From an uncultured Lachnospiraceae bacterium (lineage in GTDB: Bacteria; Bacillota; Clostridia; Lachnospirales; Lachnospiraceae): a stretch of 6,779 bases of DNA. The notes below the pieces were generated by a model that worked only from the letters and a program-made list of their open reading frames with translations, made no database searches and was not told the DNA's origin. Positions 1 through 4,281 of this stretch are shown piece by piece. Within the stretch, counting starts at the first letter, position 1. Each line of letters starts with the position of its first letter. A program made the position numbers and the translations under genes. Location: positions 1 to 6,779 of the forward strand of contig CAKRNI010000138.1 of assembly GCA_934370915.1 (NCBI GenBank), written 5' to 3'.

Positions 1-633
1 GATAAGTCCATCGGCGGCAAGTTAAAGGTCGTATTTATCGAGGACTACCGTGTATCCAACGCAGAGCTGATCTTCTCTGCTGCGGATGTCAGTGAGCAGA
101 TCTCCACAGCCAGCAAGGAGGCATCCGGTACCGGAAACATGAAGTTCATGTTAAACGGCGCTCTGACCATCGGAACCATGGACGGCGCAAATGTGGAAAT
201 GGCAGAGGAAGTCGGCAAGGAGAATATGTTCATCTTCGGTGCGTCCGCAGATGAGATCATCAATCTTGAAAACAACGGCGGCTACAACCCGATGGATATC
301 TTTAACAATGATCAGGATATCCGCCGTGTGCTGATGCAGCTCATCAACGGCTACTATTCTCCGCAGGATCCGGAACTGTTCCGCGATATCTACAACTCCC
401 TGCTCAACACCCAGAGCAGCGACCGCGCAGATACCTACTTTATCTTAAAGGATTTCCGCTCCTACGCAGAAGCCCACAGAAAGATCGATCAGGCATACCG
501 CGATGAGAAGTGGTGGGCGAGAACTGCGATGCTCAATACGGCATCTGCAGGAAAGTTCTCCTCCGACCGCACGATCGAGGAATATGTAAGAGATATCTGG
601 CATCTGAAGAAGATCAAGGTAGAACTGAAATAA
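1..633 (+). CDS. glgP: Glycogen/starch/maltodextrin phosphorylase, C-terminal part (5' end outside window)
   Basis: Cytoplasmic enzyme that releases glucose-1-phosphate from alpha-1,4-glucan ends using phosphate and pyridoxal phosphate. The reading frame is open from base 1 and ends at TAA 631-633, giving the last 210 residues of a family usually about 750-850 long. The decisive signature is the phosphorylase PLP site, E-A-S-G-T-G-N-M-K, followed by F-M-L-N-G-A-L-T-I-G-T-M-D-G-A-N-V-E; the lysine codon at 142-144 should form the Schiff base with PLP. The preceding stretch (NAELIFSAADVSEQIS) and the C-terminal helices (W-W-A-R-T-A-M-L-N, then R-T-I-E-E-Y-V-R-D-I-W) are also typical. No frameshift is visible. 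It is followed by a long-armed terminator and the divergently regulated spoIID. Glycogen breakdown near sporulation genes may be chance; no functional link is shown. The gene symbol is by family, since glucan preference cannot be read from this part. Confidence 0.96.
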   Translation, partial: DKSIGGKLKVVFIEDYRVSNAELIFSAADVSEQISTASKEASGTGNMKFMLNGALTIGTMDGANVEMAEEVGKENMFIFGASADEIINLENNGGYNPMDIFNNDQDIRRVLMQLINGYYSPQDPELFRDIYNSLLNTQSSDRADTYFILKDFRSYAEAHRKIDQAYRDEKWWARTAMLNTASAGKFSSDRTIEEYVRDIWHLKKIKVELK

Positions 634-640
634 TGTAAAA

Positions 641-669
641 ACATAAAAAACAGACCCGTCTCATACAAT
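641..669 (+). promoter_or_regulatory. Candidate sigma-E promoter for spoIID
   Basis: CATACAAT at 662-669 is an exact match to the known sigma-E -10 consensus CATACAnT. ACATAAA at 641-647 is a fair match to the -35 consensus kmATATT, and the gap is exactly 14 nt, the usual spacing. Transcription would start near 676. spoIID is a classic sigma-E (mother cell) gene in Bacillus subtilis, so motif and gene agree. The -10 box lies within the 5' arm of the terminator that follows glgP. Confidence 0.72.
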
Positions 670-771
670 AGTGATATCAGAAAATTCGGCAGGGAGTTTT
701 TCGGGCAATCCGCCCGGAAGACTTCCGGATCTGAAATCCGGTATCACAGGTGTATGAGGCGGGTATTTTTT
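645..771 (+). terminator. Long-armed terminator after glgP, folding only in readthrough RNA
   Basis: The arm at 654-667 pairs with 751-764 (13 Watson-Crick pairs plus one G-U). The stem resumes at 671-678 with 740-747. It is preceded by six A (645-650) and followed by six T (766-771), so it could stop transcription in both directions. The roughly 70-nt interior holds its own hairpins: 702-706/712-716, and 725-730/736-741, which competes with the second stem. The large loop makes efficiency uncertain. The structure overlaps the spoIID promoter and start codon. Confidence 0.6.
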
Positions 772-1641
772 ATGAAACGGTTTTTAATGGTCTTATGGAT
801 GACGGTCATGATTCCCTATGTGACAACGCTGGCGTGGACAGGCCGGATCCGGACGGATACGGGGGAGGAAGTCCCGGCGGAAGAGTTTCTTACCGGAGTC
901 GTGGCGGCGGAGATCCCGGCAGAGTACGGGATCGAGACATTAAAAGCACAGGCGGTGCTTGCGAGGACATATATCTACCGGCTTGTGGATCCGGGGATGG
1001 AACGTATCCGGGAAGAGGAACTGGATATAGACTGTCTCAGCATGAGGGAGATGGAGAAGAAATGGGGGAAGGAACATTTTAAAGAGTATTACGGAAAGAT
1101 CCGTACCGCAGTGCAGGAGACAGAGGGACTCGTTGCGGAGTACGATGGGGAGCTGATCGAACCGTTCTACTGTGAGGCGTCGGCAGGAAAGACGAGGGAA
1201 CTTGCCGCATATCCGTATATCCGTTCGGTGGAGAGTCCGGGAGATCTGGGGGCCGGAGAATTTTTATGCGTCCGGACCTTTACGGAGGCGGAGTTTGCAG
1301 ATAAGATCGGAAGGATTGGCGGGCCGCGTCCGGGATCGGACGGCATTGCGGGAAAAATTCAGATCATCGAGCGGGATGATGCCGGGTATGTGAAGCGGGT
1401 GCAGATCGGGGATATGGATTACAGCGGGGATGAGGTCCGGGATTCTCTGGGATTATTGTCGTCCTGCTTTCATTTTTCATCTGCGGACGGGAAGATCCGC
1501 GTGTCATCAAAGGGGATCGGAAGCGGATATGGATTTTCCCAGACAGGGGCGGACGCGATGGAGAGAGAGCAGGGGAGAGAGTTCCGGGAACTGCTGAAAT
1601 ATTATTTTCAGGGGATTGAGATCGTGAAAATTGCGGAGTGA
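754..1641 (+). CDS. spoIID: Stage II sporulation protein D (SpoIID/LytB-domain lytic transglycosylase)
   Basis: Membrane-anchored peptidoglycan hydrolase of the mother cell; in the family it cleaves glycan strands stripped by SpoIIP and drives engulfment with SpoIIM and SpoIIP. An N-terminal hydrophobic segment (residues about 9-26) serves as signal or anchor. The core motif E-F-L-T-G-V-V-A-A-E-I-P is at 44-55, with Glu53 aligning with the catalytic glutamate, followed by L-K-A-Q-A-V-L-A-R-T-Y (63-73). The second motif, Y-C-E-A-S-A-G-K-T at 139-147, and the third, G-S-G-Y-G-F-S-Q-T-G-A at 256-266, both lack the usual histidine. At 295 residues it is a little short of the B. subtilis protein (343). 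Start is uncertain: ATG 754 has AGGTG almost touching it. ATG 772 gives MKRFLMVL, a cleaner signal start, with GAGG 12 nt upstream. spoIIQ follows after 91 nt. Confidence 0.9.
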   Translation: MRRVFFMKRFLMVLWMTVMIPYVTTLAWTGRIRTDTGEEVPAEEFLTGVVAAEIPAEYGIETLKAQAVLARTYIYRLVDPGMERIREEELDIDCLSMREMEKKWGKEHFKEYYGKIRTAVQETEGLVAEYDGELIEPFYCEASAGKTRELAAYPYIRSVESPGDLGAGEFLCVRTFTEAEFADKIGRIGGPRPGSDGIAGKIQIIERDDAGYVKRVQIGDMDYSGDEVRDSLGLLSSCFHFSSADGKIRVSSKGIGSGYGFSQTGADAMEREQGREFRELLKYYFQGIEIVKIAE

Positions 1642-2757: not shown

Positions 2758-3030
2758 ATGAATTGCAGAAATTCCGATCTGCCGGATACCGCTATGACTC
2801 CGTCCTGCGGCTGCGGCAGAAGTCTGTCTGATATTTCCGGTCCGGGACCTGTTGTGCGTCCGGTGTCCAGCTTCTGTTTTGACGATAATGATCCAAGATT
2901 TCCGATAGGAATGGGATATGTTCCGATGCAGATGTGGGGGACCGTATATCCGTTAGCCAGAGGTTTTGTCCGGGGAACGATCTTCCCGTCCCTGGATCTT
3001 CCGTTTGCCGTTGGGAGGTGCAGAAGATGA
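2758..3030 (+). CDS. cotJA: Spore coat-associated protein CotJA
   Basis: Small spore-coat protein encoded with CotJB and CotJC; made in the mother cell and built into the coat, where in the family CotJA and CotJC interact. The 90-residue protein holds the CotJA core: P-I-G-M-G-Y-V-P-M-Q-M-W (49-60) and G-T-I-F-P-S-L-D-L-P-F (73-83), resembling the A-x-x-Y-V-P-x-Q ... G-T-L-F-P-E-L pattern of the family. The first 45 residues are a variable extension containing Cys3 and a C-G-C-G motif at 17-20, with a further Cys40. Start ATG 2758 follows AAAGGAG (2741-2747) by 10 nt. Its stop overlaps the cotJB start in an ATGA arrangement at 3027-3030, which points to translational coupling. Confidence 0.88.
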   Translation: MNCRNSDLPDTAMTPSCGCGRSLSDISGPGPVVRPVSSFCFDDNDPRFPIGMGYVPMQMWGTVYPLARGFVRGTIFPSLDLPFAVGRCRR

Positions 3031-3401
3031 GAGAACTATATCGATGCAGCATGATGCCGGGAATGCCGGCAGAACCCATGTGTGACTCCCACCTGTCAGC
3101 GCAGAGTGCGATGCCCGCATGCAGTACGTGTCAGAGTGCCGGGGACATGACTACTCGGGACCAGGAGCTGCTGATGCGCCAGATCATGGAAGCCGGTTTT
3201 GCGATGGATGACGTTGCCCTGTTCTTAGACACTCATCCGGAAAATCAGGATGCGCTTCGCTATTACAAAGCGGTCCGTGACATGCGTGACCAGTCCATGG
3301 CTGCCTATGAGAGGCGGTTTGGGCCGCTGAGATACACCGATGTCACGTCCATGTCCTGGAACTGGGTAACTGAAAAATGGCCATGGGAAGGAGGATGCTA
3401 A
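3027..3401 (+). CDS. cotJB: Spore coat protein CotJB with Met/Cys-rich N-terminal extension
   Basis: Spore-coat protein of the cotJ operon; biochemical role unknown. I place the start at ATG 3027, which overlaps the cotJA stop and has GGGAGGTG (3013-3020) 6 nt before it. An in-frame ATG at 2934 lies deep inside cotJA and has no such site. The 124-residue product is longer than the roughly 87-residue B. subtilis CotJB. The family core begins near residue 45, with the conserved A-L-F-L-D-T-H-P-E-N-Q (64-74), a K-A-V-R-D repeat-helix region, and the tryptophan-rich tail S-W-N-W ... K-W-P-W-E. The extra first 40 residues are rich in Met (7 including the start) and Cys (7, 19, 32, 35), ending in a C-S-T-C pair. 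Such a segment could crosslink or bind metal in the coat; this is inference. Confidence 0.9.
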   Translation: MRELYRCSMMPGMPAEPMCDSHLSAQSAMPACSTCQSAGDMTTRDQELLMRQIMEAGFAMDDVALFLDTHPENQDALRYYKAVRDMRDQSMAAYERRFGPLRYTDVTSMSWNWVTEKWPWEGGC

Positions 3402-3402
3402 G

Positions 3403-4026
3403 ATGTGGGTCTACGAAAAAAGATTGCAGTTTCCGGTAAATATAAAGGAACCGAACGCGAAGATGGCACAGTTTATTATGAGTCAGTATGGTGGACCCGA
3501 CGGCGAAATGGGTGCGTCCATGCGCTATCTCTCCCAGCGCTATTCCATGCCCTACAGTGAGCAGAAAGCGGTGTTGACAGACATTGGTACAGAGGAACTG
3601 GCACACCTTGAGATCGTCGCGGCGATCGTCCACCAGCTCACGAGAAATCTCACCGCCGAGGAACTGGAAGAACAGGGATTTGGTCCGTACTATATCGACC
3701 ATGCCACAGGGATCTGGCCTCAGGCGGCTGGCGGTGTGCCCTTTAACGCCTGCGAGTTCCAGTCGAAGGGAGATCCGGTGACGGATCTCTTCGAGGACCT
3801 TGCTGCAGAGCAGAAAGCCAGAAGCACCTACGATAACATTCTCCGTGTCGTGACAGATCCCGATGTCTGCGAACCGATCCGCTTCTTAAGGAAGCGCGAG
3901 ATCGTCCACTTCCAGCGCTTCGGAGAAGCTCTCCGCGGTCTTCAGGAGAAGCTGGACTCCAGAAACTTCTACGCCTTCAACCCGAGCTTCGATCCGCAGC
4001 CAGCTGCGGCGGGAAATTCACGGTAG
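3403..4026 (+). CDS. cotJC: Spore coat protein CotJC, manganese-catalase-like
   Basis: Ferritin-like four-helix protein of the manganese catalase family, placed in the spore coat, where members can break down hydrogen peroxide. All five ligands of the dimanganese site appear present: Glu35 (G-P-D-G-E-M-G), Glu65 and His68 (E-E-L-A-H-L-E), Glu136 (A-A-E-Q-K-A-R) and His169 (E-I-V-H-F-Q-R-F-G-E). These align with Glu35, Glu66, His69, Glu148 and His181 of the Lactobacillus plantarum enzyme. At 207 residues it has the normal CotJC length and is shorter than true Mn catalases (about 270). ATG 3403 follows the cotJB stop by one base, with AAGGAGG at 3388-3394 inside the end of cotJB. A strong terminator follows at 4035. 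The intact metal site suggests real activity, but that is not proven here. Confidence 0.95.
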   Translation: MWVYEKRLQFPVNIKEPNAKMAQFIMSQYGGPDGEMGASMRYLSQRYSMPYSEQKAVLTDIGTEELAHLEIVAAIVHQLTRNLTAEELEEQGFGPYYIDHATGIWPQAAGGVPFNACEFQSKGDPVTDLFEDLAAEQKARSTYDNILRVVTDPDVCEPIRFLRKREIVHFQRFGEALRGLQEKLDSRNFYAFNPSFDPQPAAAGNSR

Positions 4027-4110: not shown

Positions 4111-4281
4111 CTACATCTTGCACTGGAAGGAATCACAGTCGGTACATTCCTTCTTTGTAGGATTGAGCTCATGCGTTCCCACATGGATACGGTCTAAGGT
4201 GCAGTAATCCACATTTTCCGCATGATGCACGCAGTTATGGATCGAGCACTGGATGCTGTCGTTCTTTTCCTGATTCATCAT
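4111..4281 (-). CDS. DUF1540 domain protein, 56 residues, six cysteines
   Basis: Small soluble protein of the DUF1540 family, common in Clostridia and of unknown function. The frame runs from ATG 4281 (a second ATG follows at once) to TAG 4113-4111. Cysteines are at 12, 17, 27, 46, 49 and 54: I-Q-C-S-I-H-N-C (10-17), then Y-C-T-L-D-R-I-H-V-G (26-35), then C-T-D-C-D-S-F-Q-C (46-54). This C-x4-C ... C-x4-I-x-V ... C-x-x-C-x-S-F layout is the family signature and suggests a small metal-binding or disulfide fold. AAGGTGGTGAG (about 4294-4284) just upstream is a good ribosome site. It converges on cotJC and shares its terminator. A forespore-like promoter at 4311-4338 and the spore-gene setting hint at a spore role; no function is claimed. 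Confidence 0.9.
   Translation of the reverse strand: MMNQEKNDSIQCSIHNCVHHAENVDYCTLDRIHVGTHELNPTKKECTDCDSFQCKM

Follow-up and report, generated by a model that had tools for sequence, protein, structure and literature searches.

It is known from Bacillus subtilis sigG and from phage T4 gene e that the point at which an RNA begins can decide whether the start of a gene further downstream is masked. In B. subtilis, a hairpin of 20+ bp is located in the gap between spoIIGA-sigE and sigG (Masuda 1988 and Sun 1991, as cited in Mearls 2018, PMC5942855), and the available text of this article proposes that it blocks translation on spoIIG read-through RNA. Gene e of phage T4 possesses late promoters in the region of the 5' strand of an RNA structure, which cuts lysozyme synthesis about 100-fold; there, long early RNAs mask the RBS, and the gene guarded in this way encodes a cell-wall hydrolase (available text of PMC3014915). 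The locus described below resembles gene e in the predicted masking on long RNAs and in the kind of product that would be guarded. It resembles sigG in that a hairpin precedes a sporulation gene and, by prediction, cannot form in RNA from that gene's own sporulation promoter. By its anatomy, the hairpin between glgP and spoIID thus appears to join the sigG and T4 gene e kind. A related arrangement reportedly shields Tn10/IS10 from outside promoters (described by Davis in 1985); the read-through RNA is said to fold back and mask the start and RNA from the internal promoter to escape. It differs in serving a transposon and not a developmental gene.

The DNA analyzed here (the window, 6,779 nucleotides) originates from an uncultured Lachnospiraceae bacterium. 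It begins with the truncated 3' end of glgP encoding a glycogen/alpha-glucan phosphorylase (1-633, plus strand; NCBIfam TIGR02093, E 8.8e-83), which is located upstream of spoIID and read in the same direction. The spoIID gene (772-1641, plus strand, 289 amino acids, start assigned from homologues) was identified by TIGR02870, TIGR02669, and Pfam SpoIID. With the translation from 754, TIGR02669 scored over its model cut-off and TIGR02870 reached 217.7 bits (E 2.3e-64), below its cut-off of 234.75. Sporulation genes are located downstream of the promoter predicted below: the next gene after spoIID encodes a SpoIIQ-like M23 peptidase (about 1733-2584), and cotJA, cotJB, and a cotJC/manganese-catalase-like gene (2758-4026) are found near spoIID/spoIIQ. 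In a scan of the window, the sigma-E patterns applied gave no hit in front of the cotJA-cotJB-cotJC-like genes. Behind them, a small ORF on the minus strand (4111-4281) encodes 56 amino acids, among them six Cys. A sigma-F-like promoter pattern, GTATA-N14-GGTAAGAATA, is matched once in the window, at 1687-1715 (0.03 expected per window). This match is located directly upstream of the likely GTG start at 1733 of the SpoIIQ-like gene, and the SD-like GAGGTG (1721-1726) would form the extreme 5' end of an RNA starting from it.

Most of the glgP-spoIID gap is occupied by a 53-bp hairpin, an imperfect palindrome of 133 bases (642-774, plus strand), which extends to the spoIID start codon. This structure is real and far beyond chance. 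The fold of 640-775 has a minimum free energy of -72.0 kcal/mol as compared to a mean of -30.5 (sd 3.7) for shuffled sequences (z -11.1), and none of 200 shuffles folded as well. When 666 segments of 136 nt from both strands (20-nt steps) were compared, none of the others folded as stably, the runner-up reaching -59.5. The longest gapless arm is 15 as compared to 6-14 in 500 mononucleotide shuffles. A preliminary description of this DNA had reported a 14-bp stem formed by a 5' arm at 654-667 and a 3' arm at 751-764; the stem exists and contains one G-U pair (659/759), with A765 and then six T (766-771) behind it, but its extent had been underestimated, as it constitutes just the base of the 53-bp hairpin. 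Outside this base stem, CAUAAAAAA (642-650) and UUUUUUAUG (766-774) form an A/U-rich outer stem, in which the A-tract (645-650) pairs with the T-tract (766-771). Toward the loop follow inner stems (671-681/737-747 and 685-689/731-735) and a 15-bp stem with a 5-nt loop (692-706/712-726), which is predicted in either of the two RNAs considered below.

The hairpin shares with ordinary intrinsic terminators an A-tract and a GC-rich base stem (CCCG/CGGG near the base) followed by a U-tract (TATTTTTT). In contrast to these, it has no short loop: 83 nt with further stems lie between the arms of the base stem, which itself contains a promoter motif and the start region of the next gene. A simple terminator scan allowing loops of 3-8 nt did not list the base stem, and the efficiency with which the base stem would terminate transcription is uncertain. 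A search against Rfam revealed no family at the cut-off; the best model was the MIR847 microRNA with 22.6 bits as compared to a gathering score of 184.

The start of spoIID was deduced from homologous proteins. An M-K/R-R/Q-F-type motif encoded from ATG 772 forms the start in 103 of 120 listed homologues (of 305 found). Among the remaining 17, P0026 and P0035 are predicted to be N-terminally extended by what corresponds to the 3' arm read in frame, and the other 15 start later, off frame, or 1-6 residues earlier. ATG 754 is indeed the first ATG of the frame, as had been described before, but these homologues argue against it as the start codon, and spoIID likely starts at ATG 772. An SD-like run GAGGCGGG (756-763, plus strand) is located inside the 3' arm, and ATG 772 pairs with CAU 642-644; since both lie in the 3' side of the hairpin, the translational half of the lock proposed below is strengthened. 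The distance from the SD-like GAGG to ATG 772 is 12 nt and thus longer than usual, so GAGGCGGG is regarded as a putative SD sequence. Because of the conserved start at 772, the gap was taken as non-coding and its interpretation as a coding extension of SpoIID was set aside. A protein search with the gap part returned P0026 alone, and a search with the P0035 equivalent returned P0035 itself and P0026; as just two candidates were scored in each search, little weight is given to absence elsewhere. The gap (634-771) lacks a stop codon in the frame common to glgP and spoIID, and read-through of the glgP stop codon would yield a GlgP-SpoIID fusion.

A candidate sigma-E promoter is embedded in the hairpin. 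Its -10 box CATACAAT is found exactly at 662-669 (plus strand) and overlaps the 5' arm, as had been reported before, with 662-667 lying within the arm. This type of -10 sequence corresponds to the sigma-E consensus. A -35-like ATA (643-645, within cATAAA at 642-647) gives the arrangement ATA-N16-CATACAAT, and transcription would start at 675-678, i.e., 6-9 nt past the -10 box. In C. difficile, sigma-E controls spoIID, and sigma-E promoters carry ATA at -35 (available text of PMC3789822). The pattern ATA-N15-18-CATACANT has its sole match in the window at 643-669, with 0.023 matches expected per shuffled window (300 shuffles), and it is absent from all 2000 shuffles of the gap. A looser pattern (CATA...T), for which 0.62 matches are expected per window, was found at this site alone. 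CATACAAT by itself, with at most one mismatch, is neither rarer nor commoner than expected by chance (five in the window as compared to 5.1). On the minus strand, the 3' arm (749-775) resembles this promoter, with CATAAA, 12 nt, and CATACACC, as if the promoter had been copied in inverted orientation; the CATAAA-N12-CATACACC arrangement does not fit the sigma-E patterns applied.

The setting of this promoter was compared with that of distant spoIID genes. The SpoIID relatives P0052, P0057, P0063, and P0064 are assigned to Lachnospiraceae bacterium. A scan of genome contigs yielded two distant loci. Starting from these, the searches covered the phylum of either locus and one class in one of the phyla; among the matches listed (199 genomes, 156 with a match) the best identity was 38% to the Lachnospiraceae SpoIID P0057. 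With P0064 at E 1e-45, no match was obtained in 26 genomes, and a 16S probe pattern was present in none of 149 genomes. A plasmid search returned SpoIID of ≤35% identity only (12 records), and a search of viral contigs for DNA of the relatives returned none. Upstream regions were taken from the first 42 ranked genomes minus two (a match near the contig end and an in-frame stop); starts were picked automatically in these 40 regions and some are probably wrong. A sigma-E-like match, defined as at least 6/8 in the -10 box, was found in 13 of them, and 11 of these 13 share the 16-nt spacing from ATA to the -10 box. The distance from promoter to start is 27-57 nt in the 13 regions as compared to 102 nt in the window, which leaves room for the hairpin. 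Pairing of the -10 box with the SD/start region has a probability of 0.76 here and of ≤0.18 in the 13 distant matches. Hence, what looks out of the ordinary is not the promoter itself, with its usual spacing, but that it is embedded in a hairpin. In one of the 13 regions (L035), the SD is also bound by sequence upstream of it (0.03 unpaired) and becomes accessible in the sigma-E RNA (0.95); this region is rich in T and A and follows a tRNA-like end. It was given no weight either way, since its -10 box does not pair with the start region and the start picked there is questionable.

Folding of RNAs with different 5' ends bore out the earlier suggestion that RNA from glgP would contain both arms and RNA from the sigma-E site would lack the 5' arm. 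The comparison proposed with it, 640-775 against 676-775, gave -72 and -35.8 kcal/mol, respectively, and the outer stem is gone from the shorter RNA. In read-through RNA (from 560 or 600), 757-763 and ATG 772 are unpaired with a probability of 0.00-0.06. For RNA from 674-677, the corresponding values are 0.02-0.68 at the SD positions and 0.27-0.56 at the ATG, depending on the ends used; the SD-like GAGG is still partly paired in the sigma-E RNA (mean unpaired 0.29). Opening of 755-776 requires 25.8 (RNA from 560) or 23.4 kcal/mol (from 630) as compared to 7.2-7.3 in RNA from 675-678. Judged by folding, RBS and start are thus paired in RNA from upstream; judged solely by motif position and folding, spoIID's own promoter would begin its RNA inside or after the 5' strand.

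In RNA ending at 765, the base stem contributes -25.7 kcal/mol in read-through RNA and -5.7 kcal/mol in sigma-E RNA; a strong stem at the U-tract is therefore predicted for read-through RNA alone. Growing RNA was folded step by step from 600, which describes equilibrium and not kinetics; the inner stems appeared first and the base stem last, by 765. In RNA from 560 or 600 that has grown to 750, the 5' arm is base-paired with the end of glgP, which is not the case in RNA from 633. The base stem must therefore displace this pairing as it forms, and by 765 it outcompetes it in folds from 560 or 600.

We consider it probable that the glgP-spoIID gap acts as a start-site-dependent lock, which would terminate and mask read-through RNA and would be unable to form in RNA from the sigma-E promoter. 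When RNA polymerase arrives from glgP, the hairpin would form and transcription would terminate at 766-771; any RNA escaping termination would have its start masked and be poorly translated, perhaps also cleaved by RNase III. Transcription by sigma-E would begin near 675-678, beyond the 5' arm, so the outer stem could not form, the residual structure at the start would be weak, and spoIID would be translated. The inner 15-bp stem would remain close to the 5' terminus of the sigma-E RNA and may stabilize it. The purpose would be to exclude SpoIID, a peptidoglycan-cutting engulfment hydrolase, from vegetative cells during glgP expression. We regard the hairpin as probably functional. For the stronger proposal that one 133-bp palindrome is a complete developmental insulator, in which promoter, terminator, and start mask occupy the same bases and the RNA start decides, we see the chances as evenly balanced.

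Conservation of the hairpin was examined in two relatives, P0026 and P0035, with SpoIID proteins of 88% and 76% identity, respectively. Both predicted proteins begin upstream, in or beside the loop, and the 3' arms of these relatives can therefore be read in translation. Read in frame, 19 of 23 residues of the 3' arm are kept in P0026 and 17 of 23 in P0035, which is about as conserved as the SpoIID protein although the arm is apparently non-coding. Eight substitution sites are visible between 706 and 771: five are unpaired (three of them in the loop), two keep a G-U pair, and one breaks a pair. Pairing is thus spared by seven of eight visible changes, with a binomial P of 0.002-0.019 by the transition bias assumed; this and the following P-values assume that the changes are independent. 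Without the loop, four of five changes spare pairing (P 0.02-0.10). The first codon of the relatives' proteins had been omitted from the count because it is selected as a start codon; with this codon included, seven of nine changes spare pairing (P 0.006-0.040).

The first codon of the P0026 and P0035 proteins implies a change at 704, which would break a pair of the inner stem. In P0035, a change at 751 or 752 would disrupt pairing near the top of the base stem, barring a compensatory change. Position 739 is T in both relatives and would pair with A679, closing an A-C mismatch, if A679 is kept. Taken from 3' arms seen through the proteins of two relatives, these data give moderate support for selection on the hairpin structure, short of proof by covariation. 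Within the proteins, P0035, P0049, and P0050 carry variable inserts after the YRIVDP segment, which SpoIID of the window lacks.

Among the alternatives to such a lock, a strong glgP terminator, possibly with an RNase III site, which merely adjoins spoIID and masks its start as a by-product of the short gap, survives best and is nevertheless unlikely. Its U-tract, A-tract, and GC-rich base would be typical of ordinary bidirectional terminators, and the terminator scan revealed 14 other terminator-like hairpins in the window as compared to 6.0 in shuffles. However, 53 bp over 133 nt far exceed the mean 3'-terminator stem of 7.6 bp (available text of PMC2965389). In addition, the SD-like run, ATG 772, and the full sigma-E-like promoter are all located inside the hairpin, and the promoter-start distance is 102 nt, as compared to 27-57 nt in the distant regions.

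Opening of the start region is 16-19 kcal/mol costlier in read-through RNA, and sigG provides a proposed precedent; both observations would also fit a translational block alone, i.e., a sigG-like fold-back without real termination at the U-tract, which would leave untranslated glgP-spoIID RNA in growing cells. We regard this as rather improbable, since a GC-rich stem base followed by a T-run is the classical end of a terminator and the hairpin ends in just this way. It is very unlikely that the promoter match arose by chance and that spoIID is transcribed from elsewhere, the hairpin being a constitutive attenuator or an RNA-sensing leader of unknown type: the lack of an Rfam family at the cut-off leaves room for an undescribed leader, but just 0.023 strict matches are expected per window, none occurred in the 2000 gap shuffles, and the next gene has its own sigma-F-like match. 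Least probable of all is a mobile, MITE-like palindromic element inserted at the start codon and carrying the promoter by chance, which the long inverted repeat might suggest, but 600-800 is unmatched in 72,556 plasmid and 50,697 phage records, one exact 3'-arm pattern is unmatched in viral contigs, and relatives whose SpoIID is only 76-88% identical retain the 3' arm.

The start-site-dependent lock favored here differs from the described systems in several respects. The genes upstream of sigG are sporulation genes, whereas glgP is metabolic, and the sigG promoter belongs to sigma-F/G, whereas the one found here is sigma-E-like. For sigG, the available text of PMC5942855 describes a translational block alone and contains the word 'terminator' 0 times, whereas a U-tract is present here; moreover, most of the -10 box belongs to the 5' arm in the glgP-spoIID gap. 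Gene e of T4 serves phage lysis, is read from a late phage promoter, and is not a host sporulation gene, and no terminator is mentioned in the available text of PMC3014915, in contrast to the U-tract after the stem of this locus. Within the available text of the literature searched, no description was found of a structural sporulation gene preceded by such a hairpin that combines a terminator-like U-tract with a sporulation -10 box in its 5' arm. As compared to sigG and T4 gene e as described in these texts, the U-tract and the location of the promoter -10 box inside the 5' arm are new.

When a sporulation gene is located behind a housekeeping gene, as in this window, accidental read-through might lead to untimely synthesis of a cell-wall hydrolase. 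If the lock works, it would represent the trick of sigG and T4 lysozyme applied to an engulfment gene, termination and masking being combined in a single structure around the promoter. The arrangement provides a signature that can be searched for, namely a stem with a sporulation -10 box in its 5' arm and the start of the next gene in its 3' arm. If the arm proves to be conserved in more diverged relatives, the hairpin would be a standing regulatory module of a Lachnospiraceae-like lineage and not an accident.
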